Shown here piece by piece: positions 13,281-59,817 of a DNA stretch of 64,000 nucleotides. Each line of letters starts with the position of its first letter. Positions within the stretch are counted from its first letter, which is position 1. A program made the position numbers and the translations under genes. This DNA is from Asterias amurensis (lineage: Eukaryota; Echinodermata; Asteroidea; Forcipulatida; Asteriidae): the NCBI RefSeq assembly GCF_032118995.1, contig NC_092660.1, positions 18,524,501 to 18,588,500 of the forward strand, in the 5' to 3' direction. A model generated the notes under the pieces. It was given only the letters and a program-made list of their open reading frames with translations, was not told the DNA's origin and did not search any database.

Positions 13281-13880
13281 ATGTCGTTATCCATTCGCTG
13301 TCTTCACACTCGACCGGACCTAATCGTCTCTTGCTCGAAGCTTTTGAAGAGCGTCTGGCCCTGTTCAAGGGTTGAGCGTCTGCAGCATTTGGAGAACGAG
13401 AACTGCAATGGGTTCCCGTGTTCGTTAGTTCTCATTGACCATAGAGAGAACCGGCCAGATTCCGTAATCGGACATTTGCGGATTGTTCCGGTAAAGTTCC
13501 CGATTCAACCGAAAAGCGTGTATCTTGAGGCAGGTTGTGTAGACAAATCCAGACAAATGGAGGGATTGTACAAACAAATGCTGAGTTTTGCCGACAAATT
13601 TGCGTCTGAAACCTTGGAGTGTCAACAGATCTTTGGGTGGATTTTCAAAGATTTTAACCCGTTTGTCAAAAGTATAGGGTATGTTGAATGCCCAGACTTT
13701 ACGGTCCGAGCAGTTGGAGCTAATGCACTGGAACCATTTGGCACCCCGAGATTTTGGACCAAAGACACACCGCCCCCTGACAACTGGAAGTTCGCCCCCG
13801 ATGGTTCCATCATAACGAAGGACGCCTTGCTGAATACGGTCATGATAAAGAAAACTTGTGGAACCAAGATGGAACTTTGA
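13281..13880 (+). CDS. NAA80-like: Array GNAT (NAA80-like), class alpha, unit A
   Basis: Intronless, 199 aa. The GNAT core aligns with the 7454 gene through residue 90. The acetyl-CoA loop is Q-M-E-G-L-Y (92-97), so the last Gly of the Q/R-x-x-G-x-G/A motif is Tyr. The 'FY' of helix 4 is replaced by F-V (128-129, 'NPFVKSIGY'). The C-terminus ('FWTKDTPPPDNW', 'KKTCGTKMEL') is new relative to the 7454 gene. The start context has A at -3 and is shared by all copies. Cofactor binding and catalysis are doubtful, yet the frame is intact in all seven array copies, so some function is likely. It is transcribed against the flanking SRCR exons. Two residues differ from its unit D sister (55866). Confidence 0.85.
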   Translation: MSLSIRCLHTRPDLIVSCSKLLKSVWPCSRVERLQHLENENCNGFPCSLVLIDHRENRPDSVIGHLRIVPVKFPIQPKSVYLEAGCVDKSRQMEGLYKQMLSFADKFASETLECQQIFGWIFKDFNPFVKSIGYVECPDFTVRAVGANALEPFGTPRFWTKDTPPPDNWKFAPDGSIITKDALLNTVMIKKTCGTKMEL

Positions 13881-14797
13881 CTTTTTTTACTTGCAGCCCC
13901 TCCCCCCCCCCCACACACACACACTATACATTGTAGCTGTGAAGTGACGTACATTTTCACCTGTGGGCTATCGACTTTGGCCGTGTAGTTATATGCTTGG
14001 AGTTTAAACCCATCAAACAAAATGGAACATTCAACCTCGGTGATTTCATCTCAATCAAAGCCATGAGTTTTGGCCCTGAGTGCGGGATGCTGGTTGCTTG
14101 ACAAGATGGCTGCATCGCAATAAGAAATGCTGTATAGAACAGCTACCTGAGCGGAATGTTTTCAACGGAAATGGTATTTTAACTTGTTTATAATGCACCT
14201 GATCATCATTTTAATGTAATTTTTATATGGTACACTTCTGAATTTTTCGCAATTATCGACTAAAACATCAGGCACCAACCTAAAGGTTTTGAAAAACTAA
14301 AAACACTTATGCCGTTGACGGCGCGCGTCAAAGGACAATGCCGCTGACGTCATCTCTGGGAGTTTGCTTTGTTATACCTCCACGCTGTAACAAAGCGGCT
14401 TTACAAATTGGAGCTCCCAACTATGACGTTTTGAGAGTGATTACGTAACGGGGCTTTTAGAGAATTTTTTAGGACAATAAGAGAATTTTCCTGGGGCCTA
14501 CACATGCCTCCAGCTCCTGCTCTATTGAACATAACATGAATATGTATAGCGTTTAACAAAGACAACGGTCCGAGTAGGGTGGAGCCTTCAGTATCCAACT
14601 TGTGATTGGGCGTTGGCAAGATCTGGACGTGCTACGGTGCTTTGAACGTGTAAAACGAATGATCACTAGTTGGACTCATCCAAAATGTCATGATATTATA
14701 ATTATGTAGTCGTGTTCCACCAGTTGCTTTCCAGTACAATTGTATCTTGACCCTTTCTTTGTGGAGCTGTATTTATGGTTGTTTTTCATCGTCCTGT
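13881..14797. other. Spacer between alpha and beta GNAT genes
   Basis: Begins with a variable poly(C)/(CA)n tract (about 13900-13925), then conserved 3' flank ('GTGAAGTGACGTACATTTTC') found after every array gene. No gene. 14401-14619 minus is an ORF repeated only by duplication. Confidence 0.5.
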
Positions 14798-15005
14798 CAA
14801 CTGTACGCCGTCTGGCGACGACACCAAGGGAATACTATAATACTTCTCTGCTATTTTGGACAACTGTACGCCGCCAGTGTATAGTGGCGACGACACCGAG
14901 GGAATTCTATAATACTTCTCTGCTATTTTGGACAACTGTACGCCGTCGATATATAGTGGCGACGACACCGAGGGAATATACTATAATACTTCTCTGCTAT
15001 TTTGG
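14798..15005 (+). promoter_or_regulatory. Promoter-proximal tandem repeat, 3 units
   Basis: Three copies of the 61-75 bp unit ('CTGTACGCCG...') directly before the beta gene. The middle unit has the variant 'CGCCAGTGTATAG'. The same organisation as at 58983 suggests those two are the closest relatives. Confidence 0.7.
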
Positions 15006-15032
15006 ACAAGATCTGCTTGTTGATGATCCATC

Positions 15033-15632
15033 ATGTCGTTATCCATTCGCTGTCTGCACACTCGACCGGACCTAATCGTCTCGTGCTCGAAGCTTTTGAA
15101 GAGCGTCTGGCCCTGTTCAAGGGTTGAGCGTCTGCAGCATTTGGAGACCGAGAACTGCACTGGGTTCCCGTGTTCGTTAGTTCTCATTGACCATGGAGAG
15201 AACCGGCCAGATTCCGTCATCGGACATTTGCGGACTATTCCGGTAAAGTTCCCGATTCAACCGAAAAGCGTGTATCTTGAGGCAGGTTGTGTAGACAAAT
15301 CCAGACAAATGGAGGGATTGTTAAAACAAATGCTGAAATTTGCCGACAAATATGCGTTTGAAACCTTGGAGTGTCAACAGATCTTTGGGTGGATTTTCAA
15401 AGATTTTAACCCGTTATTCAAAAGTGTAGGGTGGGTTGAATGCCCCGACTTTACGGTCCGAGCAGTTGGAGCTAATGCACTGGAACCATTTGGCACCCCG
15501 AGATTTTGGACCAAAGACACACCGCCCCCTGACAACTGGAAGTTCGCCCCCGATGGTTCCATCATAACGAAGGACGCCTTGCTGAATACGGTCATGATAA
15601 AGAAAACTTGTGGAACCAAGATGGAACTTTGA
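15033..15632 (+). CDS. NAA80-like: Array GNAT (NAA80-like), class beta, unit A
   Basis: 199 aa, intronless. It differs from alpha at clustered sites: 'HLRTIPVKF' (65-73), loop Q-M-E-G-L-L (92-97), 'LKFADKYAF' (101-109) and 'NPLFKSVGW' (126-134). The residues next to the acyl-acceptor site are therefore the most changed part. Like alpha it lacks both the third loop Gly/Ala and the catalytic-position Tyr. Nearly identical to 27928 and 59218. Confidence 0.85.
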   Translation: MSLSIRCLHTRPDLIVSCSKLLKSVWPCSRVERLQHLETENCTGFPCSLVLIDHGENRPDSVIGHLRTIPVKFPIQPKSVYLEAGCVDKSRQMEGLLKQMLKFADKYAFETLECQQIFGWIFKDFNPLFKSVGWVECPDFTVRAVGANALEPFGTPRFWTKDTPPPDNWKFAPDGSIITKDALLNTVMIKKTCGTKMEL

Positions 15633-16429
15633 CTTTTTTTACTTGCAGCCCCCCCCCCCCCCCCCCCACACACACACTATACATTGTAGCTGTGAAGTGA
15701 CGTACATTTTCACCTGTGGGCTATCGACTTTGGCCGTGTAGTTATATGCTTGGAGTTTAAACCCATCAAACAAAATGGAACATTCATCCTCGGTGATTTC
15801 ATCTCAATCAAAGCCATGAGTTTTGGCCCTGAGTGCGGGATGCTGGTTGCTTGACAAGATGGCTGCATCGCAATAAGAAATACTGTATAGAACAGCTACC
15901 TGAGCGGAATGTTTTCAACGGAAATGGTATTTTAACTTGTTTATAATGCACCTGATCATCATTTTAATGTAATTTTTATATGGTACCTCCACGCTGTAAC
16001 AAAGTGGCTTTACAAATTGGAGCTCCCAACTATGACGTTTTGAGAGTGATTGAGTAACGGGGCTTTTCGCGAATCTCTCAGAAAAGCGCTGGATAAGGAT
16101 ATTCAAAATGATTAGTTATTTTTTTTACCAATTGAAATTGAAATTGAAATTTATAATCATATGACTCGATTTCCTTATTCATTGAAAACACTTTAAGTGA
16201 AATTCAGCAAAGTTCACGACTTGACATTTTCGTTCAAGCAGATCTTTAACATTCGTGTATAACCTGCCCAAACAATTGTCAGATTATGTACGCTTGCAGC
16301 TGATTTTTTATATTTTTTTGTTTTCCACCAAGAAAGTATGCTATTGTTTTACGTATTATCATCTTACTGGTTCTTAATTTGATAAAGGCTGGCTGGTCCT
16401 GATTGTTTGGCACGTTGCATTGGATTGTG
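15633..16429. other. Intergenic downstream of GNAT beta
   Basis: Poly(C)/(CA)n tract, the common GNAT 3' flank to about 15985, then AT-rich DNA with an (AATTGA)3-like repeat at 16127-16150. No gene seen. Copies lie at 28528-29330 and 59818-60630. Confidence 0.45.
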
Positions 16430-16890
16430 CACGTTGTGCTATATAAACGGCGTTTGAAAGCGTTCGTTTGTTGGAAGGGTGCTTTAGAAGTATAATAATC
16501 CACACAAATGCTTCAAGATTGTGTGGTTTTCCTTTTACTTCGTGAATGTACACGGTCCGCTGATTTGCAAAACCAAAATGTTGACTCGACAAAATACTGG
16601 ACCGACTTTGGATTCGGCTTTAGGCTAGCTTTGCCCGCGGTTGTTTTGACAATTGCGCGTGCTGTGCGCATGCGTAGGCTCAGACGAGAGGATGGAGCCT
16701 GAAACCGAATCAAAAGCCGAAGCCGTCTTTTCGAAAAGGGCCGTAGTTCACGAAGTAAAAGGAAAACCACAAAATTTCGAGGCATATTAATATGTGAATC
16801 TTTATGTTCTACAACTCAGTACATGTATATTCATTACATAACAAACGCTGCCATACGCTTTCTGTAGCCCAAAGCGCCCAATCCAAGGCG
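16430..16890. repeat. Degenerate TTAA MITE with nested 'AAAGGGCC' element
   Basis: The outer palindrome ('AAGCGTTCGTTTGTTGGAAG', 'ATCCACACAAATGCTTC') is split by a nested element (about 16598-16743) carrying 'TTGGATTCGGCTTTAGGC' and 'AAAAGGGCC'. The same nested arrangement occurs in units B (29330-29790) and D (60640-61080), so it predates duplication. ORFs at 16508-16702 and 16513-16785 arise from the palindromes. Confidence 0.7.
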
Positions 16891-16939
16891 TTTATGTATA
16901 TGTATGGCTTGATATTATGTTATTGTTCACCCGGAACTT

Positions 16940-17385
16940 AAAGAAGGCACTTTGACTGACACGTTTGGTAGTTGTTAAAGACCAGTTTATTCTCACTTCT
17001 TGTATCCCAACATAATTATGCATAAATGTGAAAATTTTGGCTCAATGGTCATCGAATTGATGCAAGCAAATAGTGGAAGAAAAAAACACCCTCGTTGCAC
17101 CAAAATCGGTGTGCTTTCAGATACATAAATAAAATACCTCAGCTGAAGTATTTCTTTATTAGAATGACAAACAACCTACTAATTTTGCTTTTTACCCATA
17201 CACCGATATGTGTTAGCAATGTATACTCAGTACTTTCCCGAGTCCTGTGAAAACAAAATATCACAGGCATAAGTATTACTCGGGTGGGAATTTACCTTTT
17301 TCTCCAAAACTTACCAAGTAAGTTTGTATAATATTATAACACTTGTTTTGAGTAATTACCAATAGTGTCCAGTGCCTTTAAAGAG
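16940..17385. repeat. TTAA-type MITE with an inverted SINE piece inside
   Basis: Ends resemble the 'GTGTCCAGTGCCTTTAAAG' family. Inside, 17190-17290 reads in reverse the tail seen at 47750-47815 ('ACACATCGGTGTATGGGT', 'ACTCGGGAAAGTACTGAG'). Copies lie at 29840-30295 and 61110-61570. Confidence 0.65.
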
Positions 17386-17674
17386 TCTTTTCGAAACCTT
17401 GTCGAGTCGGCTTTCATCTTAAGCGGCTGTGTCCATCTTTCTGACTCTCAGCAATAAAAAGCGTTCATTTTGTGAAACTTGCTGACGGAGCAAAATCCAG
17501 AGCCAAACCTGCGGTTTCGACAAGACACTGTTTAATTAGCCTTTGGGCATGAATGGTTTCAGGCTTATCTTGATTTTTATATCCGAAAATATTACACATT
17601 AATTCCTTTGTTCTATGTAATTCACTGTTCATTTTCTTATGTAATATTGATGTTAACCAACATTAACTACATGC

Positions 17675-18898: not shown

Positions 18899-19254
18899 TT
18901 ATGCATATTGGTAATCAAAGAAACCATATGAATGACTCATCGTCTGGCAACGGACTCCAGCATCCTCGGAATGGCGGCAATTGTGCACACCGACGGTGAG
19001 ATGAGAGCATGACCAGACCGAGTCTTCGGTCCCATCACACTGTACGTCATCAAGCCAGATCTGCCCCGTCCCAGTGGTGTACGATGAGCTCTGTAGATCT
19101 GTGCCGTCTGCGTAACCCAACTGACGGCAGACTACGGTGGCATCGTTGTCATCCCAGTAGTCGTCGCAAACGGTGCCCCACTGTCCGTCGTAGAAGACCT
19201 CCACTCTCCCCTCGTACGTGTGCTGACCACCGACAAGACGAATCACCGAAGTCC
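18899..19254 (-). CDS. SRCR gene, terminal coding exon (unit A)
   Basis: Minus-strand exon. The acceptor 'CTGTTTCTTTTGAAG' precedes 'GGACTTCGGTG' (phase 1). One complete group-A SRCR domain follows: 'IRLVGGQHTYEGRVEVFY', 'GTVCDDYWD', 'VVCRQLGYADG', 'IWLDDVQC', 'HNC', 'EDAGVRCQ', with six cysteines. The frame then continues into a 14-residue tail ('TMSHSYGFFDYQYA') and stops at 18899. SRCR proteins of this kind are usually secreted or membrane receptors that bind microbial or self ligands. No transmembrane segment follows, so this gene should end as a secreted protein. The tail differs from those in the sister modules. Confidence 0.85.
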
Positions 19255-19427
19255 CTTCAAAAGAAACAGCGCAAAGAAAAAACTTATCAATTTTATGTAC
19301 TTTGATAACGTCGCGAGATTCACTGAGATTTGATGGTTTCCAAAAGCAAGTCAGTCGTCTCACCCCAGTTCCAAAGTCACCTACGACAAAGTCGCACTGT
19401 TTTACCCCCTGTGGAGTATACCACTGT

Positions 19428-19498
19428 GCCTCGTAGCTCAGTTGATAGAGCATCTGCCCGGAGTGTCAGGGGTATTGGGTTCAAATCCAAATGAGGAC
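19428..19498 (+). ncRNA. tRNA-like sequence (SINE head or tRNA pseudogene)
   Basis: A-box 'TAGCTCAGTTGATAGAGC' and B-box 'GGGTTCAAATCC', with acceptor arms GCCTCGT and ATGAGGA pairing at most positions. The anticodon arm does not fold well. Sister copies are at 63264-63334 and, more diverged, 49432-49502. It lies in the intron between the two last SRCR exons. Confidence 0.5.
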
Positions 19499-20353: not shown

Positions 20354-20706
<353 letters not shown>

Positions 20707-20789
20707 TTACTATTGTCTATCTGTTCGGTGTAAGTTTCAAGTAAGAACGTGTTCCTTAAAGTGTTCTTATTACTCTTCTTACATCCCTT

Positions 20790-21560
20790 TTTAAAGACAC
20801 TTGACACTTTTGGGTAGTTGTCAAAGACCAGTCTTCTCACTTGTTGTATCTCATTATATGCACAAAATAACAAACCTGTAAACATTTGAATTCAATTGGA
20901 CGTAGAAGTTGCTAGATAAAAGGAAAAAAAAACACCATTGTCACACGAAGTTGTGTGCTTTCAGATGCTTGATTTCGGGACCTCAAAATCTAATTCTGAG
21001 GTCTCGAAAAGAAATTCAAATATTTTAGTGGAAAGTTACTTCTCTCTCGAAAACTTATTCAGAGGGAGACATTTCTCATAATGTGTTATACTAACAAAAG
21101 CTCTCCATTGCTTGTTACCTTGTAAGTTTTTATGCTAACAAATTTTGAGTAATTACCAATAGTGTCCACTGCCTTTAAAGCCAGTGGACACTATTGGTAA
21201 TTGTCAAAGAGTAGTCTTCACAGTTGGTGTATCTCAACATATCCATAAAACAACAAACCTGTGAAAATTTAAGCTCAATCGGTCGTCAAAGTTGCGAGAT
21301 AATGATGAAAGAAAAAACACCCTTGTCACATGAAGTTGTGTGCTCTGTGATGCTTGATTTCGAGACCTCACATTCTATAAACTTGAGGTCTCGAAATCAA
21401 ATTCGATGAAAATTACTACTTTCTCGAAAACTACGACACTTCAGAGGGAGCTGCTTCTCACACTGTTTTATACCATCAACCTCCCCCCGTTACTCGTAAT
21501 CAATAAAGGTTTTATGATGATAATTATTTTGAGTAATTACCAAGTGTCCAGTGGCTTTAA
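20790..21560. repeat. Two adjacent TTAA-type MITEs (unit B copy)
   Basis: Same pair as 8760-9537, followed by (AATTC)n at 21604-21643. Confidence 0.85.
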
Positions 21561-22445
21561 ACAGGCTACGTGCAGCTACGCTATACGGTCCGCTTCACTT
21601 CACTTCAATTCAATTCAATTCAATTCAATTCAATTCAATTCAAGTTAACATTTATTTCATTCTCACTTGGGTAGCTTTGACCCGCTTCATTTCGCACCAC
21701 TTCTCAAACCCCTTTCCAGTCGATTTTTTCTTGACTTTGCAGTCTTGATGTAGAAGAGTGAAACTTTCACTGTGGTGTCAGTTTTACTCTTTTGAAAGTC
21801 TTTCGAGAGTGAAAGTCAATCTGTGTCACTCTTTTTGAGTGAAATTTGGACTCTAAAATAATAGAGTTGAAAGTACCCGTCTTTCACTCTAAAAAGAGAA
21901 GCTGCCACAACATGGCTCTTTGCAAGAGTGGTACGGTGGAAAAAACGAGTGATTTTCCACTCGTTTGACAAATATTTCCCATTTAAAAGCACTACGACAT
22001 TGGCAATTTCGTAGTGCCGAATAAAAATTGCTGCCTGGCACACTTTCAATATGAAAAAAAATCCCCCCGCCCCGTTTTGAAAAATCCTGGATCCGCCCCT
22101 GGCATGGCATAACCTCCAGTGATGCCGGGCTGAAAACTTAAACTAAAATGTGACGTAAGATATTCGGGCTATGGAAAAACCCAGCTAACCGTATCACTCA
22201 AAATTGGAGAGATTTAAAGTTAATCAAAAAGATTGTTATTTAATTAGGGACCAATCGATTTTTTTAATTTAAAAATAAATCCTAAGCATTTAAAAAATTA
22301 TATCTGAAAGCTTTAGTTTTAAATCTTAAAATGGATTAGTCCCTGACTATAATCCTTTTAAATCCCTCCCATTTAGAGTTCGTATTCACTTATTGGTCGT
22401 TGTATTTCATGATAGATTGTTTTCTCCAGAGCTAGACATGTACCT

Positions 22446-22801
22446 ATACACTCTAAAAACTAAAGAGTTGAATCCAACACTTGCATGAGTTCGGTGAGTG
22501 ACTAAACTTTGAAAGTGTTGGATCCAGCGTTGTGTTTGTTAAAAACTAGCAATTTAAATTGTTGATCCAACGCAAAAAGGGTTAATTCGACAATTTAAGT
22601 GTTATTTCAACATTTCTAAAACAAAATCCTTTGAATTGTTGGATCAGCTTTTTAAAAGTTAAACTGGCACTTAAATTGTTGACCGAATACCTTAAAATGC
22701 TAGATTTAACATATAAAATGCTGGATACAACACTTTCAAAGTGTAGTCACTCACCGAACTCATGCAAGTGTTGGATTCAACTCTTTAGTTTTTAGAGTGT
22801 A
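22446..22801. repeat. TA-flanked inverted-repeat element (unit B copy)
   Basis: Same element and length as 10379-10734. Confidence 0.75.
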
Positions 22802-23462
22802 GTTTCTGAGCAGACCTTCTTTTGTCGTAAACATTGGGGAAAAACCTGTAGGATTTGACTAGCTTGTTCATTATCAAGTGTGAGTTGTATTTTTTTTTTC
22901 AACATTGATGACTTTTGTTTGTTTAAATTGCACCTTTCTAATTTTATCCGAAACCATTTAGTTTACAATTCGTGTATATACTTTCTCACTGCTGTTGCCA
23001 TTTTGTTTATCAATAAAATGACAAAACACGTTGATTCCATTGTTTTCTAATCAAATAATTATTTTATGCCCGTTGCATTTTCTACGGAACCCTGGAACTA
23101 ACTTGTTGAGATCTGAGATAGTTATATATTGCAGGATGATGACATCATAAACTTGAGATGGCGACATCTCGGGATGAAGATATCTTGAACTTTGATTGGT
23201 ATCTTTAAAAAAATATTGTATCTTCTTCTTCCACCTTCAAAAGATTGAAGATTTTACACGCACTGCGTGTGTGCGCATGGGTTGGTTTGAGGTAAAACAT
23301 GAACTATTGTGCCAGGTGCAGTTAGAATTACCTGTACTGTACAGGTGCGAGTAAAAAGCTGGAGATGAGGTTACTTCAGCCAGAGTTTTAGTAATACAGG
23401 CCTATTATACACAGACAGCATTTCCACGAAAGTGAACGGCTTGCGTCTACCCCGTGACCGGG

Positions 23463-23906
23463 TCGGTCGAGTTGGTCTTTGAAAAGCGTTCTGTAACCGT
23501 TTGCTATAAAATGCATAATGGGTAGAAAGATGTAGAATACAATGATCTACACAAATGACCCTGCGCATATATTTCTGCGCCTTGAACACCCAGCAGGGTA
23601 GTTCCGTGCGCATTTCAAGTCTTATTTTTATTATATTATTATATCCCTCGAAATTGCGTGGTTTTCTTTTTACCTCGTCGACTATTCACGGTCGGCCATT
23701 TATGGGAGTCAAATTTTTGACATGGCCGACCGTGTTTAGTTCGCGACGTAAAAGAAAAACCGTGCAATTTTTAGTCATACTTGTGTGGATCATTTATCTA
23801 TTCTGCTCTTAAAACATCTTCCTAACCACCATATGCATTTCATAACAAACGGCTTCAAACGCTTTTTATAGACCAACTCGTCCGATCCAAGGCAACGTGT
23901 TCCCTT
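23463..23906. repeat. TTAA MITE, interrupted (unit B copy)
   Basis: Paralogous to 11405-11848. Confidence 0.7.
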
Positions 23907-24220
23907 AAGCACACGAAACGGTAACCGTAAATCGGCTGTTAAATGGAAGGGATTACAAAGTTAATCCAAAGGATTGTAAATAGGGACCAAACCATTTTTA
24001 GATTTAAAATTAATTGAACTCATTGTTCCTGTATTTTGAACGATCCAACGGAACGCACGCGGAACTGTATAGCCGATGTCGTCGTATCGGACACGGCCTT
24101 TAATAGTAATACGCTGGTCGGTCTCATTCTTCGTGAACTCGATCAATTGAATTATCTATTGACCCTTTCTGTGTGGAGCTGTATTTATGGTAGTTTGTCA
24201 TCGTCGTATGGCCACTTACG

Positions 24221-24372
24221 CCGTCAAGTTTAGTGGGGACGTAACACCGAGGGAATACTATAATACTTCTCTGCTACTTTAGACAAGATGTGCTTTTTGA
24301 GCCATCATGTCGTTATCCATAAATCTCACTTTTTTCCAGAAGCCTGAACCTTCAGGAACAGTCAAAAACTAA
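24221..24372 (+). pseudogene. Orphan GNAT promoter and start-codon relic (unit B)
   Basis: Same relic as 12163-12314, with ATG at 24307 followed by only about 21 codons. Shared by all three units, so older than the duplication. Confidence 0.7.
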
Positions 24373-24625
24373 ATTTGGTCGCGACTTTTTGCGACTTTGG
24401 AAAAATATTCAATTTTGAATTTATGTACCCCTTTGAGAGACGCCTGTTTTTGACTCAACCACCTGTATGACGGGTGCGTGTGTCAGCGGTCATATTGCTC
24501 TGTTCAGAATCAAAGAAAGGCCACCATTTATGAGTACCGCTTTTGGAAACCTTTATGACAACACACTTTGCATCGCAAAAATTTCTCATCATTTTTTCTT
24601 TGATATGCCTATGGTTAGACAAAAG

Positions 24626-25791
24626 AAAATTAAAAAAATTGTAGGCACTTGCCCTACGCATATTAGTAGTTATAATAAAACTACTGCCGACCACTCACGA
24701 CATAGGACTATGATGACGTCATAGACATTTTAAACCATTACCATCGAATTCTTCGTATCCGAAAACCCCTTACAACCATTTTTCATCATAAATATTTTTA
24801 GCTGTTTCGTAGCGAAGCGCAGCGAAACAGCTCTTGTTTTTGTTAAAGTTTTTTTTATTATTTTTTTTATTTGTCTGTTTCAGTACTCGCAATTTTTTGA
24901 ATAGTTCCTAAAGAGCAATTGCAATGAAACTTTCAGGGATTGAAGGTTATGGTGCAATGATGATCCTAAAGCAATGACGTCATGATGACGTCATAACCGG
25001 TCACGTGACGTCATCTTAAAGGTGTTTTATGTTAAATGTTTGAAAATTTATAACAAATCAGCCAAAAGAGACCGTAGGTTTCTGTTTGCGGGATTGCGGA
25101 GGGATAAATTAGGTCTTCATTTTGTTTTCTGTGCGTGACCTCACATGACCTCTACTTCCGGTCGAAACCGGAAGTGGCCCTCTAATTCAAAATTGGCAAA
25201 AGATATGAAGTTGCTTTTAACGATGTTAGTGCCTGGCAAGAGTGGGCAGTTCAAAAAAAATACCAATGACGTCACAAAATGCAACAGCGCCCTCTAGCGG
25301 CAGGTTGAAAACTTGTCAAAATGGACTTTTTGAAGATGTGTGTGGTGAAACTTTTTGTAATCACTTCAAATTTTACACACACGTTAACTGTCAGGCAGCC
25401 ATCATATGTGTGAAGTTTCAGATCAATGACGTCATCGGGGGTTACGTGACGCGGCATTAAAGGTGCACTTTTTGAACTAATATAACTCCCTTAGTAATTA
25501 TGCGATCATGTTGAAACTTGATAGGTTGTTGGATATTAACAAGTTCTTAGGAAATGTGAAATGACGTCATGATGACGTCATCACAAGATTTTTTATGATT
25601 TTTTTCAATTTTTGCACCTTTAACACATAAATAGCTATCTGAACATGGTATAATCCAAAATATTTTTGTATTTATGCCACATTGGGCAAATTGGTTTGAA
25701 TAACCAACAAATTTAAAACTCTGTTGAGAAATTTGAAAATTTTAATGACGAAACAGCTCTGCATTTGTGCACAAATGCAATTTAGCTCTAG
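24626..25791. mobile_element. Unit B-specific insertion, Helitron-like 3' end, CRE-rich
   Basis: Absent from units A and D. The right end has a perfect hairpin (GCATTTGTGCACAAATGC, 25761-25778), then nine bases, then CTAG followed by T (25788-25792). This is the arrangement of a Helitron 3' terminus. The left end is not resolved. An inverted repeat AGCTGTTTCG/CGAAACAGCT lies at about 24800-24833. Eight copies of TGACGTCA are scattered inside. No ORF of helicase type exists, so it would be non-autonomous. A different element class is possible. Confidence 0.5.
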
Positions 25792-26219: not shown

Positions 26220-26245
26220 CCAGATCTGCTTGTTGATGATCCATC

Positions 26246-26845
26246 ATGTCGTTATCCATTCGCTGTCTGCACACTCGACCGGACCTAATCGTCTCGTGCT
26301 CGAAGCTTTTGAAGAGCGTCTGGCCCTGTTCAAGGGTTGAGCGTCTGCAGCATTTGGAGAACGAGAACTGCACTGGGTTCCCGTGTTCGTTAGTTCTCAT
26401 TGACCATAGAGAGAACCGGCCAGATTCCGTAATCGGACATTTGCGGATTGTTCCGGTAAAGTTCCCGATTCAACCGAAAAGCGTGTATCTTGAGGCAGGT
26501 TGTGTAGACAAATCCAGACAAATGGAGGGATTGTACAAACAAATGCTGAGTTTTGCCGACAAATATGCGTCTGAAACCTTGGAGTGTCAACAGATCTTTG
26601 GGTGGATTTTCAAAGATTTGATCCCGTTACTCAAAAGTATAGGGTGTGTTGAATGCCCCGACTTTACGGTCCGAGCAGTTGGAGCTAATGCACTGGAACC
26701 ATTTGGCACCCCGAGGTTTTGGACCAAAGACACACCGCCCCCTGACAACTGGAAGTTCGCCCCCGATGGTTCCATCATAACGAAGGACGCCTTGCTGAAT
26801 ACGGTCATGATAAAGAAAACTTGTGGAACCAAGATGGAACTTTGA
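26246..26845 (+). CDS. NAA80-like: Array GNAT (NAA80-like), class alpha, unit B
   Basis: 199 aa, intronless. Alpha features: 'HLRIVPVKF', loop Q-M-E-G-L-Y, 'LSFADKYAS'. The helix 4 segment is unique: 'DLIPLLKSIGC' (124-134), so the catalytic-position pair is L-L. It is the most distinct of the array copies in exactly the part predicted to contact substrate. Confidence 0.85.
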   Translation: MSLSIRCLHTRPDLIVSCSKLLKSVWPCSRVERLQHLENENCTGFPCSLVLIDHRENRPDSVIGHLRIVPVKFPIQPKSVYLEAGCVDKSRQMEGLYKQMLSFADKYASETLECQQIFGWIFKDLIPLLKSIGCVECPDFTVRAVGANALEPFGTPRFWTKDTPPPDNWKFAPDGSIITKDALLNTVMIKKTCGTKMEL

Positions 26846-27899: not shown

Positions 27900-27927
27900 G
27901 ACAAGATCTGCTTGTTGATGATCCATC

Positions 27928-28527
27928 ATGTCGTTATCCATTCGCTGTCTGCACACTCGACCGGACCTAATCGTCTCGTGCTCGAAGCTTTTGAAGAGCG
28001 TCTGGCCCTGTTCCAAGGTTGAGCGTCTGCAGCATTTGGAGAACGAGAACTGCACTGGGTTCCCGTGTTCGTTAGTTCTCATTGACCATGGAGAGAACCG
28101 GCCAGATTCCGTCATCGGACATTTGCGGACTATTCCGGTAAAGTTCCCGATTCAACCGAAAAGCGTGTATCTTGAGGCAGGATGTGTAGACAAATCCAGA
28201 CAAATGGAGGGATTGTTAAAACAAATGCTGAAATTTGCCGACAAATATGCGTTTGAAACCTTGGAGTGTCAACAGATCTTTGGGTGGATTTTCAAAGATT
28301 TTAACCCGTTATTCAAAAGTGTAGGGTGGGTTGAATGCCCCGACTTTACGGTCCGAGCAGTTGGAGCTAATGCACTGGAACCATTTGGCACCCCGAGATT
28401 TTGGACCAAAGACACACCGCCCCCTGACAACTGGAAGTTCGCCCCCGATGGTTCCATCATAACGAAGGACGCCTTGCTGAATACGGTCATGATGAAGAAA
28501 ACTTGTGGAACCAAGATGGAACTTTGA
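27928..28527 (+). CDS. NAA80-like: Array GNAT (NAA80-like), class beta, unit B
   Basis: 199 aa, intronless. Beta features: 'HLRTIPVKF', Q-M-E-G-L-L, 'NPLFKSVGW'. Differs from 15033 at single residues (Lys30, Asn39, Met189). The same loss of loop Gly/Ala and of the 'FY' Tyr applies. Confidence 0.85.
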   Translation: MSLSIRCLHTRPDLIVSCSKLLKSVWPCSKVERLQHLENENCTGFPCSLVLIDHGENRPDSVIGHLRTIPVKFPIQPKSVYLEAGCVDKSRQMEGLLKQMLKFADKYAFETLECQQIFGWIFKDFNPLFKSVGWVECPDFTVRAVGANALEPFGTPRFWTKDTPPPDNWKFAPDGSIITKDALLNTVMMKKTCGTKMEL

Positions 28528-30956: not shown

Positions 30957-30960
30957 TTAA

Positions 30961-50342: not shown

Positions 50343-50428
50343 TCAAGGAAGAGAATTCATTCATTCATTTATTTATTTTTTTTTTCAGAAAAGTTTACAT
50401 TATATGAAGTTTCGTGGCCTAGCGGTTA

Positions 50429-50971
<543 letters not shown>

Positions 50972-51117
50972 TTATGATGAACTTAACCATGACGTTTTAA
51001 AAAGTTGTTGGTCATTCGGTTCCAGGTTGGTTTACTATTGTCTATCTGTTCGGTGTAAGTTTCAAGTAAGAACGTGTTCCTTAAAGTGTTCTTATTACTC
51101 TTCTTACATCCCTTTTT

Positions 51118-51895
51118 AAAGACACTTGACACTTTTGGGTAGTTGTCAAAGACCAGTCTTCTCACTTGTTGTATCTCATTATATGCACAAAATAACAAAC
51201 CTGTAAACATTTGAATTCAATTGGACGTAGAAGTTGCTAGATAAAAGGAAAAAAACACACCATTGTCACACGAAGTTGTGTGCTTTCAGATGCTTGATTT
51301 CGGGACCTCAAATCTAATTCTGGGGTCTCGAAATGAAATTCAAATATTTTAGTGGAAAGTTACTTCTCTCTCGAAAACTTATTCAGAGGGAGCCATTTAT
51401 CATAATGTGTTATACTAACAAAAGCTCTCCATTGCTCTCCACCAAGTAAGTTTTTATGCTAACAAATTTTGAGTAATTAATTACCAATAGTGTCCACTGC
51501 CTTTAAAGCCAGTGGACACTATTGGTAATTGTCAAAGAGTAGTCTTCACAGTTGGTGTATCTCAACATATCCATAAAACAACAAACCTGTGAAAATTTAA
51601 GCTCAATCGGTCGTCAAAGTTGCGAGATAATAATGAAAGAAAAAACACCCTTGTCACATGAAGTTGTGTGCTCTCTGATGCTTGGTTTCGAGACCTCACA
51701 TTCTATAAACTTGAGGTCTCGAAATCAAATTCGATGAAAATTACTACTTTCTCGAAAACTACGACACTTCAGAGGGAGCTGCTTCTCACATTGTTTTATA
51801 CTATCAACCTCTCCCCATTACTCGTAATCAAGAAAGGTTTTATGATGATAATTGTTTTGAGTAATTACCAATAGTGTCCAGTGCCTTTTAACAGG
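51118..51895. repeat. Two adjacent TTAA-type MITEs (unit D copy)
   Basis: Same pair as 8760-9537, followed by an expanded (AATTC)n at 51930-52013. Confidence 0.85.
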
Positions 51896-52813
51896 CTACT
51901 TGCAGCTACGCTGTACGGTCCGCTTCACTTCAATTCAATTCAATTCAATTCAGTTCAATTCAATTCAATTCAAATCAATTCAATTCAATTCAATTCAATT
52001 CAATTCAATTCAAGTTAACATTTATTTCATTCTCACTGGGTAGCTTTGACCCGCTTCATTTCTCCCCACTTCTCAAACCCCTTTTCCAGTCGATTTTTTC
52101 TTGACTTTGCAGTCTTGATGTAGAAGAGTGAAACTTTCACTGTGGTGTCAGTTTTACTCTTTTGAAAGTCTTTCGAGAGTGAAAGTCAATCTGTGTCACT
52201 CTTTTTGAGTGAAATTTGGACTCTAAAATAATAGAGTTGAAAGTACCCGTCTTTCACTCTAAAAAGAGAAGCTGCCACAACATGGCTCTTTGCAAGAGTG
52301 GTACGGTGGAAAAAACGAGTGATTTTCCACTCGTTTGACAAATATTTCCCATTTAAAAGCACTACGACATTGGCAATTTCGTTGTGCCGAATAAAAATTG
52401 CTGCCTGGCACACTTTCAATCTGAAAAAAAATCCCCCCCCCCCGTTTTGAAAAATCCTGGATCCGCCCCTGGTTGGCATAACCTCCAGTGATGCCGGGCT
52501 GAAAACTTAAACTAAAATGTGACGTAAGATATTCGGGCTATGGAAAAACCCAGCTAACCGTATCACTCAAAATGGGAGAGATTTAAAGTTAATCAAAAAG
52601 ATTGTTATTTAATTAGGGACCAATCGATTTTTTTAATTTAAAAATAAATCCTAAGCATGTAAACAATTATATCTGAAAGCTTTAGTTTAAATCTGAAAAT
52701 GGATTAGTCCCTGACTATAATCCTTTTAAATCCCTCCCATTAAGAGTTCGTATTAACTTATTGGTCGTTGTATTTCATGATAGATTGTTTTCTCCAGAGC
52801 TAGACATGTACCT

Positions 52814-53169
52814 ATACACTCTAAAAACTAAAGAGTTGAATCCAACACTTGCATGAGTTCGGTGAGTGACTAAACTTTGAAAGTGTTGGATCCAGCGTTG
52901 CGTTTGTTAAAAACTAGCAATTTAAATTGTTGATCCAACGCAAAAAGGGTTAATTCGACAATTTAAGTGTTATTTCAACATTTCTAAAACAAAATCCTTT
53001 GAATTGTTGGATCAGCTTTTTAAAAGTTAAACTGGCACTTAAATTGTTGACCGAATACCTTAAAATGCTAGATTTAACATATAAAATGCTGGATACAACA
53101 CTTTCAAAGTGTAGTCACTCACCGAACTCATGCAAGTGTTGGATTCAACTCTTTAGTTTTTAGAGTGTA
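52814..53169. repeat. TA-flanked inverted-repeat element (unit D copy)
   Basis: Same as 10379-10734. Confidence 0.75.
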
Positions 53170-53839
53170 GTTTCTGAGCAGACCTTCTTTTGTCGTAAAC
53201 ATTGGGGGAAAACCTGTAGGATTTGACTAGCTTGTTCATTATCAAGTGTGAGTTGTATTTTTTTTCAACATTGATGACTTTTGTTTGTTTAAATTGCACC
53301 TTTCTAATTTTATCCGAAACCATTTAGTTTACAATTCGTGTATATACTTTCTTACTGCTGTTGCCATTTTGTTTATCAATAAAATGACAAAACACGTTGA
53401 TTCCATTGTTTTCTAACCAAATAATTATTTTATGCCCGTTGCATTTTCTACGGAACCCTGGAACTAACTTGTTGAGATCCTGAGATAGTTATATATTGCA
53501 GGATGATGACATCATAAACTTGAGTTGGCGTCTTTGGCGACATCTCGGGATGAAGATCTTGAACTTTGATTGGTATCTTAACAAAAATATTGTATCTTCT
53601 TCTTCCACCTTCAAAAGATTGAAGATTTTACACGCACTGCGTGTGTGCGCATGGGTTGGTTTGAGGTAAAACATGAACTATTGTGCCAAGTGCAGTTAGA
53701 ACTACCTGTACTGTACAGGTGCGAGTAAAAAGCTGGAGATGAGGTTACTTCAGCCAGAGTTTTAGTAATAAAGGCCTATTATACACAGACAGCATTTCCA
53801 CGAAAGTGAACGGCTTGCGTCTACCCCGTGACCGGGTCG

Positions 53840-54283
53840 GTCGAGTTGGTCTTTGAAAAGCGTTCTGTAACCGTTTGCTATAAAATGCATAATGGGTAGA
53901 AAGATGTTGTAGAATACAATGATCTACACAAATGACCCTGCGCATAAATTTCTGCGCCTTGAACACCCAGCAGGGTAGTTACGTGCGCATTTCAAGTCTT
54001 ATTTTTATTATATTATTATATCACTCGAAATTGCGTGGTTTTCTTTTTACCTCGTCGACTATTCACGGTCGGCCATTTATGGGAGTCAAATTTTTGACAT
54101 GGCCGACCGTGTTTAGTTCGCGACGTAAAAGAAAAACCGTGCAATTTTTAGTCATACTTGTGTGGATCATTTATATATTCTGCTTTTAAAACATCTTCCT
54201 AACCACCATATGCATTTCATAACAAACGGCTTCAAACGCTTTTTATAGACCAACTCGTCCGATCCAAGGCAACGTGTTCCCTT
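53840..54283. repeat. TTAA MITE, interrupted (unit D copy)
   Basis: Paralogous to 11405-11848. Confidence 0.7.
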
Positions 54284-54597
54284 AAGCACACGAAACGGTA
54301 ACCGTAAATCGGCTGTTAAATGGAAGGGATTACAAAGTTAATCCAAAAGATTGTAAATAGGGACCAAACCATTTTTAGATTTAAAATTAATTGAACTCAT
54401 TGTTCCTGTATTTTGAACGATCCAACGGAACGCACGCGGAACTGTATAGCCGATGTCGTCGTATCGGACACGGCCTTTAATAGTAATACGCTGGTCGGTC
54501 TCATTCTTCGTGAGCTCGATCAATTGAATTATCTATTGACCCTTTCTGTGTGGAGCTGTATTTATGGTAGTTTGTCATCGTCGTATGGCCACTTACG

Positions 54598-54749
54598 CCG
54601 TCAAGTTTAGTGGGGACATAACACCGAGGGAATACTATAATACTTCTCTGCTACTTTAGACAAGATGTGTTTTTTGAGCCATCATGTCGTTATCCATAAA
54701 TCTCACTTTTTTCCAGAACCCTGAACCTTCAGGAACAGTCAAAAACTAA
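54598..54749 (+). pseudogene. Orphan GNAT promoter and start-codon relic (unit D)
   Basis: Third copy of the relic, ATG at 54684. Confidence 0.7.
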
Positions 54750-54809
54750 ATTTGGTCGCGACTTTTTGCGACTTTGGAAAAATATTCAATTTTGAATTTG
54801 TATACCCCT

Positions 54810-55126
54810 TAGTCTTGGCCCAAGACGATGGTGCTTGATTCTGGATAGTGTACTACGCGCGGTTGAATCGCCAAAGCGCGCCCGCCACGGTATGATTTAG
54901 TTACGTGGACGGCTTGAGATCTAGACTACACAGTGTAGTCGGTCGAATCGCCAAAGCGCGCCCGCCACGGTATGATTTAGTTACGTGGACGGCTTGAGAT
55001 CTAGACTACACAGTGATCTCAAGCCGTCCACGTAACTAAATCATACCGTGGCGGGTGCGCTTTGGCGATTCAACCGCGCGTAGTACACTATCAAGAATCA
55101 AGCACCATCGTCTTGGGCCAAGACTA
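54810..55126. mobile_element. 317-bp fold-back MITE (unit D copy)
   Basis: Identical layout and length to 12375-12691, with TATACCCCT at 54801-54809 and 55127-55135. Confidence 0.88.
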
Positions 55127-55334
55127 TATACCCCTATGAGAGACGCCTGTTTTTGACTCAACCACCTGTATGACGGGTGCGTGTGTCAGCGGTCATATTG
55201 CTCTGTTCAGCATCAAAGAAAGGCCACCATTTATGAGTACCGCTTTTGGAAACCTTTATGACAACACACTTTGCATCGCAAAAATTTCTCACCATTTTTT
55301 CTTTGATATGCCTATGGTTAGACAAAAGTCGTGT

Positions 55335-55838
55335 CAACTGTACGCCGTCTGGCGACGACACCGAGGGAATACTATAATACTTCTCTGCTATTTTGGACAA
55401 CTGTACGCCGTCAATATATAGTGGCGACGACACCGAGGGAATATACTATAATACTTCTCTGCTATTTTGGACAACTGTACGCCGTCAATATATAGTGGCG
55501 ACGACACCGAGGGAATATACTGTAATACTTCTCTGCTATTTTGGACAACTGTACGCCGTCAATATATAGTGGCGACGACACCGAGGGAATATACTATAAT
55601 ACTTCTCTGCTATTTTGGACAACTGTACGCCGTCAATATATAGTGGCGACGACACCGAGGGAATATACTATAATACTTCTCTGCTATTTTGGACAACTGT
55701 ACGCCGTCAATATATAGTGGCGACGACACCGAGGGAATATACTATAATACTTCTCTGCTATTTTGGACAACTGTACGCCGTCAATATATAGTGGCGACGA
55801 CACCGAGGGAATACTATAATACTTCTCTGCTATTTTGG
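55335..55838 (+). promoter_or_regulatory. Promoter-proximal tandem repeat, 7 units
   Basis: Longest promoter array in the window: seven 'CTGTACGCC' units, mostly 74 bp, with single-base variants (for example 'ATACTGTAATAC' in the third). The sister array in unit A has five. Confidence 0.7.
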
Positions 55839-55865
55839 ACAAGATCTGCTTGCTGATGATCCATC

Positions 55866-56465
55866 ATGTCGTTATCCATTCGCTGTCTTCACACTCGACC
55901 GGACCTAATCGTCTCGTGCTCGAAGCTTTTGAAGAGCGTCTGGCCCTGTTCAAGGGTTGAGCGTCTGCAGCATTTGGAGAACGAGAACTGCACTGGGTTC
56001 CCGTGTTCGTTAGTTCTCATTGACCATAGAGAGAACCGGCCAGATTCCGTAATCGGACATTTGCGGATTGTTCCGGTAAAGTTCCCGATTCAACCGAAAA
56101 GCGTGTATCTTGAGGCAGGTTGTGTAGACAAATCCAGACAAATGGAGGGATTGTACAAACAAATGCTGAGTTTTGCCGACAAATTTGCGTCTGAAACCTT
56201 GGAGTGTCAACAGATCTTTGGGTGGATTTTCAAAGATTTTAACCCGTTTGTCAAAAGTATAGGGTATGTTGAATGCCCAGACTTTACGGTCCGAGCAGTT
56301 GGAGCTAATGCACTGGAACCATTTGGCACCCCGAGATTTTGGACCAAAGACACACCGCCCCCTGACAACTGGAAGTTCGCCCCCGATGGTTCCATCATAA
56401 CGAAGGACGCCTTGCTGAATACGGTCATGATAAAGAAAACTTGTGGAGCCAAGATGGAACTTTGA
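55866..56465 (+). CDS. NAA80-like: Array GNAT (NAA80-like), class alpha, unit D
   Basis: 199 aa, intronless; differs from 13281 only at Thr43 and Ala195. Alpha features: Q-M-E-G-L-Y, 'LSFADKFAS', 'NPFVKSIGY'. It lies behind the seven-unit promoter repeat. Confidence 0.85.
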   Translation: MSLSIRCLHTRPDLIVSCSKLLKSVWPCSRVERLQHLENENCTGFPCSLVLIDHRENRPDSVIGHLRIVPVKFPIQPKSVYLEAGCVDKSRQMEGLYKQMLSFADKFASETLECQQIFGWIFKDFNPFVKSIGYVECPDFTVRAVGANALEPFGTPRFWTKDTPPPDNWKFAPDGSIITKDALLNTVMIKKTCGAKMEL

Positions 56466-57380
56466 CTTTTTTTACTTGCAGCCCCCCCCCCCCCCCCACA
56501 CACACACTATACATTGTAGCTGTGAAGTGACGTACATTTTCACCTGTGGGCTATCGACTTTGGCCGTGTAGTTATATGCTTGGAGTTTAAACCCATCAAA
56601 CAAAATGAAACATTCAACCTCGGTGATTTCATCTCAATCAAAGCCATGAGTTTTGGCCCTGAGTGCGGGATGCTGGTTGCTTGACAAGATGGCTGCATCG
56701 CAATAAGAAATGCTGTATAGAACAGCTACCTGAGCGGAATGTTTTCAACGGAAATTGTATTTTAACTTGTTTATAATGCACCTGATCATCATTTTAATGT
56801 AATTTTTATATGGTACACTTCTGAATTTTTCGCAATTATCGACTAAAACATCAGGCACCAACCTAAAGGTTTTGAAAAACTAAAAACACTTATGCCGTTG
56901 ACGGCGCGCGTCAAAGGACAATGCCGCTGACGTCATCTCTGGGAGTTTGCTTTGTTATACCTCCACGCTGTAACAAAGCGGCTTTACAAATTGGAGCTCC
57001 CAACTATGACGTTTTGAGAGTGATTACGTAACGGGGCTTTTAGAGAATTTTTTAGGACAATAAGAGAATTTTCCTGGGGCCTACACATGCCTCCAGCTCC
57101 TGCTCTATTGAACATAACATGAATATGTATAGCGTTTAACAAAGACAACGGTCCGAGTAGGGTGGAGCCTTCAGTATCCAACTTGTGATTGGGCGTTGGC
57201 AAGATCTGGACGTGCTACGGTGCTTTGAACGTGTAAAACGAATGATCACTAGTTGGACTCATCCAAAATGTCATGATATTATAATTATGTAGTCGTGTTC
57301 CACCAGTTGCTTTCCAGTACAATTGTATCTTGACCCTTTCTGTGTGGAGCTGTATTTATGGTTGTTTTTCATCGTCGTGT
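56466..57380. other. Spacer between GNAT alpha and beta (unit D)
   Basis: Poly(C)/(CA)n tract and conserved 3' flank; no gene. Confidence 0.5.
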
Positions 57381-57441
57381 CAACTGTACGCCGTCTGGCG
57401 ACGACACCGAGGGAATACTATAATACTTCTCTGCTATTTTG
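57381..57441 (+). promoter_or_regulatory. Promoter-proximal repeat, 1 unit
   Basis: One short unit ('CTGTACGCCGTCTGGCGACG' onward) before the first beta gene, the minimum found at an intact array gene. Confidence 0.65.
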
Positions 57442-57469
57442 GACAAGATCTGCTTGTTGATGATCCATC

Positions 57470-58069
57470 ATGTCGTTATCCATTCGCTGTCTGCACACTC
57501 GACCGGACCTAATCGTCTCGTGCTCGAAGCTTTTGAAGAGCGTCTGGCCCTGTTCCAGGGTTGAGCGTCTGCAACATTTGGAGAACGAGAACTGCACTGG
57601 GTTCCCGTGTTCGTTAGTTCTCATTGACCATGGAGAGAACCGGCCAGATTCCGTCATCGGACATTTGCGGACTATTCCGGTAAAGTTCCCGATTCAACCG
57701 AAAAGCGTGTATCTTGAAGCAGGTTGTGTAGACAAATCCAGACAAATGGAGGGATTGTACAAACAAATGCTGAAATTTGCCGACAAATATGCGTTTGAAA
57801 CCTTGGAGTGTCAACAGATCTTTGGGTGGATTTTCAAAGATTTTAACCCGTTATTCAAAAGTGTAGGGTGGGTTGAATGCCCCGACTTTACGGTCCGAGC
57901 AGTTGGAGCTAATGCACTGGAACCATTTGGCACCCCGAGATTTTGGACCAAAGACACACCGCCCCCTGACAACTGGAAGTTCGCCCCCGATGGTTCCATC
58001 ATAACGAAGGACGCCTTGCTGAATACGGTCATGATAAAGAAAACTTGTGGAACCAAGATGGAACTTTGA
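57470..58069 (+). CDS. NAA80-like: Array GNAT (NAA80-like), class beta, first copy of unit D
   Basis: 199 aa, intronless. Mostly beta ('HLRTIPVKF', 'LKFADKYAF', 'NPLFKSVGW') but with the alpha-type loop Q-M-E-G-L-Y instead of Q-M-E-G-L-L. It could be a gene-conversion mosaic or the ancestral beta state. Confidence 0.85.
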   Translation: MSLSIRCLHTRPDLIVSCSKLLKSVWPCSRVERLQHLENENCTGFPCSLVLIDHGENRPDSVIGHLRTIPVKFPIQPKSVYLEAGCVDKSRQMEGLYKQMLKFADKYAFETLECQQIFGWIFKDFNPLFKSVGWVECPDFTVRAVGANALEPFGTPRFWTKDTPPPDNWKFAPDGSIITKDALLNTVMIKKTCGTKMEL

Positions 58070-58982
58070 CTTTTTTTACTTGCAGCCCCCCCCCCCCCAC
58101 ACACACACTATACATTGTAGCTGTGAAGTGACGTACATTTTCACCTGTGGGCTATCGACTTTGGCCGTGTAGTTATATGCTTGGAGTTTAAACCCATCAA
58201 ACAAAAATGGAACATTCAACCTCGGTGATTTCATCTCAATCAAAGCCATGAGTTTTGGCCCTGAGTGCGGGATGCTGGTTGCTTGACAATATGGCTGCAT
58301 CGCAATAAGAAATTCTGTATAGAACAGCTACCTGAGCGGAATGTTTTCAACGGAAATGGTATTTTAACTTGTTTATAATGCACCTGATCATCAATTTAAT
58401 GTAATTTTTATATGGTACACTTCTGAATTTTTCGCAATTATCGACTAAAACATCAGGCACCAACCTAAAGGTTTTGAAAAACTAAAAACACTTATGCCGT
58501 TGACGGCGCGCGTCAAAGGACAATGCCGCTGACGTCATCTCTGGGAGTTTGCTTTGTTATACCTCCACGCTGTAACAAAGCGGCTTTACAAATTGGAGCT
58601 CCCAACTATGACGTTTTGAGAGTGATTACGTAACGGGGCTTTAAGAGAATTTTTTAGGACACTAAGAGAATTTTCCTGGGGCCTACACATGCCTCGAGCT
58701 CCTGCTCTATTGAACATAACATGAATATGTATAGCGTTTAACAAAGACAACGGTCCGAGTAGGGTGGAGCCTTCAGTATCCAACTTGTGATTGGGCGTTG
58801 GCAAGATCTGGACGTGCTACGGTGCTTTGAACGTGTAAAACGAATGATCACTAGTTGGACTCATCCAAAATGTCATGATATTATAATTATGTAGTCGTGT
58901 TCCACCAGTTGCTTTCCAGTACAATTGTATCTTGACCCTTTCTGTGTGGAGCTGTATTTATGGTTGTTTTTCATCGTCGTGT
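58070..58982. other. Spacer between the two beta genes
   Basis: Same spacer as 13881-14797; no gene. Confidence 0.5.
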
Positions 58983-59189
58983 CAACTGTACGCCGTCTGG
59001 CGACGACACCAAGGGAATACTATAATACTTCTCTGCTATTTTGGACAACTGTACGCCGCCAGTGTATAGTGGCGACGACACCGAGGGAATTCTATAATAC
59101 TTCTCTGCTATTTTGGACAACTGTACGCCGTCAATATATAGTGGCGACGACACCGAGGGAATATACTATAATACTTCTCTGCTATTTTG
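58983..59189 (+). promoter_or_regulatory. Promoter-proximal tandem repeat, 3 units
   Basis: Same three-unit structure and 'CGCCAGTGTATAG' variant as 14798-15005. Confidence 0.7.
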
Positions 59190-59217
59190 GACAAGATCTG
59201 CTTGTTGATGATCCATC

Positions 59218-59817
59218 ATGTCGTTATCCATTCGCTGTCTGCACACTCGACCGGACCTAATCGTCTCGTGCTCGAAGCTTTTGAAGAGCGTCTGGCCCTG
59301 TTCCAGGGTTGAGCGTCTGCAGCATTTGGAGAACGAGAACTGCACTGGGTTCCCGCGTTCGTTAGTTCTCATTGACCATGGAGAGAACCGGCCAGATTCC
59401 GTCATCGGACATTTGCGGACTATTCCGGTAAAGTTCCCGATTCAACCGAAAAGCGTGTATCTTGAGGCAGGTTGTGTAGACAAATCCAGACAAATGGAGG
59501 GATTGTTAAAACAAATGCTGAAATTTGCCGACAAATATGCGTTTGAAACCTTGGAGTGTCAACAGATCTTTGGGTGGATTTTCAAAGATTTTAACCCGTT
59601 ATTCAAAAGTGTAGGGTGGGTTGAATGCCCCGACTTTACGGTCCGAGCAGTTGGAGCTAATGCACTGGAACCATTTGGCACCCCGAGATTTTGGACCAAA
59701 GACACACCGCCCCCTGACAACTGGAAGTTCGCCCCCGATGGTTCCATCATAACGAAGGACGCCTTGCTGAATACGGTCATGATAAAGAAAACTTGTGGAA
59801 CCAAGATGGAACTTTGA
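59218..59817 (+). CDS. NAA80-like: Array GNAT (NAA80-like), class beta, second copy of unit D
   Basis: 199 aa, intronless; as 15033 except Asn39 and Arg47 ('GFPRSLVLID'). The Cys-to-Arg change in strand 2 is unique among the copies. Confidence 0.85.
   Translation: MSLSIRCLHTRPDLIVSCSKLLKSVWPCSRVERLQHLENENCTGFPRSLVLIDHGENRPDSVIGHLRTIPVKFPIQPKSVYLEAGCVDKSRQMEGLLKQMLKFADKYAFETLECQQIFGWIFKDFNPLFKSVGWVECPDFTVRAVGANALEPFGTPRFWTKDTPPPDNWKFAPDGSIITKDALLNTVMIKKTCGTKMEL

Follow-up and report, generated by a model that had tools for sequence, protein, structure and literature searches.

What becomes of an acetyltransferase family that multiplies although the residues expected to hold its cofactor and to carry its catalysis have been replaced? 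This question is raised by a 64-kb stretch of the genome of the starfish Asterias amurensis (C13:18524501-18588500, in the following called the window), which encodes an array of seven genes related to NAA80, known as a dedicated actin N-terminal acetyltransferase. On sequence grounds the encoded proteins are probably pseudoenzymatic and a pseudo-acetyltransferase family is the best, though unproven, reading of the array. If true, this would mean that a fold recognizing the actin N-terminus can be reused without catalysis or with an altered one, and the array would provide natural variants in which substrate binding is separated from acetyl transfer. In the open-licence literature nothing was found on an NAA80-like family in echinoderms or starfish.

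Active-site motifs of the array proteins

An earlier note on this DNA had described seven genes of 199 amino acids, all of full length, with Q-M-E-G-L-(Y/L) in place of the GNAT P-loop motif and without the FY of helix 4. All of this was confirmed for each of the seven open reading frames (ORFs) on the plus strand (Table 1). The consensus Q/R-x-x-G-x-G/A, set out together with its role in PMC4964394, is absent from all seven proteins, which carry Q92-M-E-G-L-(Y/L)97 and thereby retain the Gln and the first Gly and have lost the Gly or Ala of the sixth position alone. Residue 97 is a Tyr in four proteins and a Leu in three, and the region aligns without gaps with fly and human NAA80 (three of the seven array proteins were aligned). 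At codons 128-129 FV, LF or LL take the place of FY, codon 129 being TTC (4), GTC (2) or CTC (1), so that four of the seven show the mild replacement of Tyr by Phe.

Using PF00583, four array proteins reached 16.6-16.8 bits, below the cut-off of 20.7 bits, and the other three gave no match at E <= 1. The genome-wide search with the same profile (20 candidates scored) resulted in ten matches, the array copies and a gene at C1:29.17 Mb lying outside these ten. Among them the exact motif was found four times, GxG without the leading Q/R three times (the retro relatives described below) and GxC three times, and none of the ten has Tyr or Leu at the sixth P-loop position. Three GNAT-like domains (L045, L046 and L048 at C5:10430506, C5:10457456 and C19:5278008) show GxGLC loops. 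Open frames of 1133-1143 amino acids contain two of these domains, which possibly represent a multicopy element. D124 of the array was considered as counterpart of the Asp near the pantetheine of Naa80 (PMC7078549), but this part of the alignment is gapped and no claim is made.

Two further genes of the window, not mentioned in the earlier note, are an intronless relative at 7454 with GLG and FY and an eighth, broken copy on the minus strand with QMEGLY and FY. The latter has TAC (Tyr) at codon 97 and TTT TAC (FY) at codons 128-129. Because QMEGLY and FY occur together in this copy, the change at the sixth P-loop position is older than the loss of the helix-4 Tyr. As read from these sequences, the final P-loop Gly was lost before the array and the broken copy separated and the Tyr afterwards, and Leu97 is by the same comparison a later change in three type B copies. 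The order of losses (P-loop, then Tyr) is thus legible from copies inside a single window and hence directly testable.

Table 1: Features of the array and its surroundings (positions within the window).
Feature	Position	Strand	Remarks
Array gene 1 (type A)	13281..13880	+	199 aa; QMEGLY; helix 4 FV
Array gene 2 (type B)	15033..15632	+	199 aa; QMEGLL; helix 4 LF
Array gene 3 (type A variant)	26246..26845	+	199 aa; QMEGLY; helix 4 LL
Array gene 4 (type B)	27928..28527	+	199 aa; QMEGLL; helix 4 LF
Array gene 5 (type A)	55866..56465	+	199 aa; QMEGLY; helix 4 FV
Array gene 6 (type B body with Y97)	57470..58069	+	199 aa; QMEGLY; helix 4 LF
Array gene 7 (type B)	59218..59817	+	199 aa; QMEGLL; helix 4 LF
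Eighth copy	about 5283..5872	-	frame broken near codons 61-66; QMEGLY; helix 4 FY kept
Intronless NAA80-like relative	7454..8035	+	193 aa; VGTGLG and GFY kept; PF00583 33.5 bits
Replacement-rich segment, codons 97-134 of gene 1	13569..13682	+	motif end, alpha3, beta5, alpha4 (elements from weak model)
Codons 97-134 of genes 2-7	15321-15434, 26534-26647, 28216-28329, 56154-56267, 57758-57871, 59506-59619	+	
Minisatellite upstream of gene 1	12915..13257	+	74 bp, TATA-like core; directly upstream
Equivalent minisatellites upstream of array genes	14813-15009, 26074-26220, 55350-55842, 58998-59194		
Segmental duplication unit 1	8632..17674		BLAST comparison of units
Segmental duplication units 2 and 3	about 20662-30573 and 50985-61860		BLAST comparison of units

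Relationship to NAA80

The proposed likeness to NAA80 held in both the sequence and the fold search. The protein of gene 2, the one of the seven searched against the PDB sequences, matched fly NAA80 best (1.4e-13) followed by human NAA80 (2.7e-7), and these two were the only significant matches, with no other solved N-terminal acetyltransferase (NAT) among them. Its model is weak, with a mean predicted local distance difference test (pLDDT) of 51 and a predicted template modelling score (pTM) of 0.50 from a shallow alignment of eight rows, and is best at residues 91-140 (pLDDT block means 66-76); the model of the 7454 protein reached a pLDDT of 36 and is of no use. The structural comparison with NAA80 suggested by the earlier note could be made with this weak model only: the five best Foldseek matches (5wje, 5wjd, 6nbe, 6nas and 6nbw; root-mean-square deviation 7.7-14) are all NAA80, and the order of the secondary-structure elements fits a GNAT. 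At the level of a model, the fold search supports the kinship with NAA80.

With NAA80 (also NatH or NAT6; 5wjd and 5wje from fly, 6nas, 6nbe and 6nbw from human), the best match by both searches, the array shares the W-P...R-L of alpha1-alpha2 and, in the weak model, the order of elements. It differs from NAA80 in the Tyr or Leu for the final P-loop Gly, the missing helix-4 Tyr, the lack of introns and the number of copies, and its C-terminal part has PPP only and not the long polyproline stretch that in NAA80 binds profilin from the beta6-beta7 loop (PMC7864067). At the C1:12.31 Mb locus described next, PPPPPPPP occurs in a downstream open frame, as a candidate exon only.

The array is not a one-to-one orthologue of NAA80. 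In a tree including three of the seven array proteins, human NAA80 pairs with an ordinary NAA80 gene at about C1:12308.96-12311.12 kb (support 96) and the array is located in a separate clade. This ordinary gene comprises three or more coding exons, carries RGKGIG and GFY, and is identical to human NAA80 in 61 of 127 columns. A second multi-exon NAA80-like gene (RNSGLG, DFY) is found at about C1:29165.96-29174.47 kb, and both C1 genes possess GT-AG introns, called from DNA, at two common places, one splitting the Arg codon of AAR/AER and the other following ES. The array genes, the 7454-8035 gene and two tandem genes on C14 (843.3 kb and 845.5 kb; L018:5334-5906 and 7475-8059) run uninterrupted across both positions. 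The 7454 gene and the C14 pair form the sister group of the array (support 100), and all of these join the second C1 gene with a support of 85; the branch of the array is 0.53 long vs 0.21 for the sister group. These intronless relatives lack the same introns as the array and have a similar N-terminal half, but they retain GxG and the helix-4 Tyr and their PF00583 scores (33.5-43.5 bits) are above the cut-off.

The loss of the two parental intron positions, on which the retrogene call rests, shows the array, as read from genomic DNA, to be an intronless retro-derived side branch of the NAA80 family, with the ordinary NAA80 kept elsewhere in the genome. A single retroposition followed by duplications would be the simplest reading. 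On the evidence of this single genome the array family is lineage-specific. In viral contigs 34 stretches matched a search pattern and none of them encodes a relative. The proteins of gene 2 and 7454 are identical at 50/67 positions in columns 1-68, at 9/39 in columns 97-136 and at 16/61 in the C-terminal part. Between the two C14 genes there are 2 replacement changes over alignment columns 1-68 as against 34.5 over columns 137-200, a contrast of the two halves that recalls the array.

Copy number and mosaic copies

The seven genes, amplified in tandem, are distributed over three duplication units, which are 96.5-98.6% alike in BLAST pieces and diverge by 1.07-2.09% in their flanking parts. 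Two DNA searches of the genome (491,506,623 bases in 23 contigs) found eight places each, namely the seven array genes and the broken copy, and no further array copy turned up genome-wide among 14 candidates, all of which were scored. Apart from these eight and the 7454 gene, the members of the NAA80-like family are located on other chromosomes. Two array genes are mosaic. Gene 3 has a type A body under a type B-like 5' flank, whose AT insertion is common with genes 2, 4 and 7, and gene 6 has a type B body with type A-like sites at codon 97 and in the 3' flank. Both copies suggest ectopic conversion, and no donor of a converted tract was found elsewhere in the genome by the DNA searches.

Selection and divergence

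According to the earlier note the family had expanded under constraint. This is true for the branch that connects the array with its sister group (tree unrooted, three of the seven array sequences), where the ratio of nonsynonymous to synonymous rates (omega) is 0.35 for all codons, rejecting 1 at p 3e-6, and 0.20 for alignment codons 1-96 (p 1.7e-7 vs 1), the omega of this branch not being significantly different from that of other branches (p 0.11). Purifying selection acted on the lineage from which the array arose, and most strongly on codons 1-96. Among the seven copies themselves omega is indistinguishable from 1; the tests are given below.

The copies differ at 31 variable sites in 600 nucleotides and at 19 residues, 7 of them in codons 1-96, 10 in codons 97-134 and 2 beyond. 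No insertion or deletion (indel) is present in their coding sequences, and about 5-7 would be expected under neutrality as estimated from the flanks, which carry 4-11 indels outside simple sequence repeats per 24-59 substitutions. A random substitution creates a stop codon at a probability of 0.04, and 31 substitutions without a stop have a probability of 0.29.

Between genes 1 and 2, representing types A and B, codons 97-134, a segment picked after inspection of the data, show 11 replacement and no silent differences, and the rest of the gene 5 and 4. This segment differs at 11/114 sites vs 4/339 in the 3' flank (p 9e-5) and 12/600 in both flanks (p 3e-4), whereas the remaining coding sequence (9/483) does not differ from the flank (4/339, p 0.57). 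Silent differences in codons 97-134 are missing from all 21 pairs, an absence that taken alone is not significant (p 0.087). Outside the segment replacements make up 9 of 18 variable sites vs 77% expected (p 0.011), i.e. fewer than expected. Constraint among the copies is hence uneven, being visible outside codons 97-134 and not inside, where there are replacements only.

In scan-corrected simulations on the tree, with 2000 replicates each, the two statistics gave 11 and 14 at omega 0.71 and 5 and 24 at omega 1. When the 19 variable residues were shuffled in position, the count was 76 of 5000, the best window being codons 125-134 with 6 of the 19. Shuffling of replacement and silent labels with free choice of the window was not significant (44/300). 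At the tips of the array omega is at its upper bound in codons 97-136 (p 0.011 vs 1) and near 0 in codons 137-end (p 0.017). A diversification of codons 97-134 is therefore suggestive, not proven. As the region spanning the end of beta4 through alpha4 is described as the best conserved of NATs (PMC7078549), the array is, judged by its variable sites, an inversion of the NAT pattern with the cofactor and catalytic segment being the most variable.

Possible function of the array proteins

We propose that the array proteins are NAA80-derived non-catalytic binders, former enzymes kept for another job, and would give this proposal about an even chance. The proteins would fold as GNATs, keep the half that binds substrate or partner (alpha1-alpha2, beta1-beta4) and have given up the ordinary use of acetyl-CoA. 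The replacements by which the copies then diverged cluster in the cofactor and catalytic segment. The peptide site of NATs is lined by the alpha1-alpha2 loop, alpha2 and beta6-beta7 (PMC7078549). As predicted non-catalytic binders they might act at an actin-like N-terminus, where they would compete with NAA80 and related proteins or position them; alternatively, a new partner might be bound through the altered alpha3-alpha4 face.

A binder or regulator appears to be the most likely job because the cofactor features are damaged; yeast Naa50 offers a precedent, described as an inactive yet functional NAT that positions and regulates NatA (PMC12830823, PMC7010799). By analogy, a NAT fold retained without catalysis is the kind of function proposed here, but Naa50 has NatA as its partner and is likened to the array by its described function, not by sequence or motif. 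The central GNAT domain of mycobacterial Eis, reported in PMC4964394 to be inactive with an altered P-loop, resembles the array as a GNAT domain with a degraded P-loop that is kept beside an active one. It differs in lacking the Q/R that the array keeps and in being joined to the active GNAT domain within one protein.

Several observations weigh against non-catalytic binders, and there are rival readings. The array could still encode enzymes that bind acetyl-CoA or another acyl-CoA via the changed P-loop and use another acid, or positioning only, on an altered substrate, the replacements retuning cofactor and substrate. The earlier note had stated that GNATs need the P-loop motif and that the Tyr is the general acid in many of them; the motif stands as a consensus and not as a necessity, since an atypical P-loop is described for the acetyltransferase MtAAC(2')-Ic, and the Tyr is the acid in 62% of the characterised GNATs, the rest being without it (both PMC4964394). 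Retained catalysis is also favoured by the Gln and first Gly kept in all seven P-loops, by the mildness of Tyr-to-Phe in four proteins and by changes that fall in the pocket segment. A further caution for our proposal is that the Foldseek score is in part sequence-derived and the pocket geometry of the array model unreliable. We nevertheless consider persisting enzymes unlikely, as both features are lost together, PF00583 is below the cut-off or absent in all seven, and none of the ten PF00583 matches of the genome shares their sixth P-loop residue.

The main rival is more mundane: a young, drifting retrogene array, in which a jobless gene was copied by segmental duplication and partly homogenised by conversion, its frames being intact mainly through youth. 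The dN/dS over all copies, a check that the earlier note had called for, points in this direction, as a one-ratio omega of 0.71 is indistinguishable from 1 (p 0.40). Also to be set against our proposal, the site-model tests of the seven copies are not significant (M1a/M2a p 0.25, M8a/M8 p 0.10, M7/M8 p 0.26), the array tips have an omega of 1.18 for all codons (p 0.74 vs 1) and of 0.58 for codons 1-96 (p 0.47), i.e. no constraint is seen in that half, and on the joining branch 1 is not rejected for codons 97-136 (0.41, p 0.18) or 137-end (0.43, p 0.12). One of the eight copies is already frame-broken, outside codons 97-134 the coding sequence is as diverged as the flank, the flanks of the units have diverged very little, and the chance of escaping a stop was not small. 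The mosaic copies suggest conversion, and a converted tract older or younger than its surroundings might produce a similar cluster of replacements. Drift is at odds with the omega on the branch to the array, with seven coding sequences free of indels and with the shortage of replacements outside codons 97-134, and the faster change of this segment compared to the flanks goes beyond drift alone. We regard it as possible but doubtful, if somewhat more plausible than persisting catalysis. Less plausible than either is a dead active site that serves as fast-changing recognition surface, with alpha3-alpha4 under diversifying selection, the rest held back and the binders taking part in an arms race, perhaps against a pathogen factor aimed at actin or NAA80 or within actin biology specific to gametes. 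Finally, allelic haplotypes laid side by side in the assembly would reduce the true gene number to below seven, and the 1-2% difference between units could fall within the allelic divergence of a marine invertebrate; heterozygosity goes unmentioned in the main text of the assembly paper (PMC10625585). This is highly improbable, as the 64 kb contain no N run, the assembly is described as made from HiFi contigs (N50 8.05 Mb) with purge_dups (PMC10625585), types A and B are distinct inside each unit and the gene spacing is unequal between units.

Other features of the window

Directly 5' of five array genes a minisatellite with units of 72-74 bp is found in 2 to 6.7 units. Its core pattern has 17 matches within the window, every one of them upstream of array genes. 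A single core match (27842-27870) precedes gene 4, and gene 6 has none, the TATA-like stretch being gone from its 5' flank. The minisatellite, whose core is TATA-like, may multiply the promoter. Paired ORFs with an SRCR domain (18899-19453 and 62723-63289, both on the minus strand; PF00530 115 and 113 bits) are located downstream of array units 1 and 3, and a putative SRCR-like ORF lies at 50426-50953. Between the second and the third gene block, the region 31785-43451 contains repeats of at least 300 nucleotides showing 60-99% identity.

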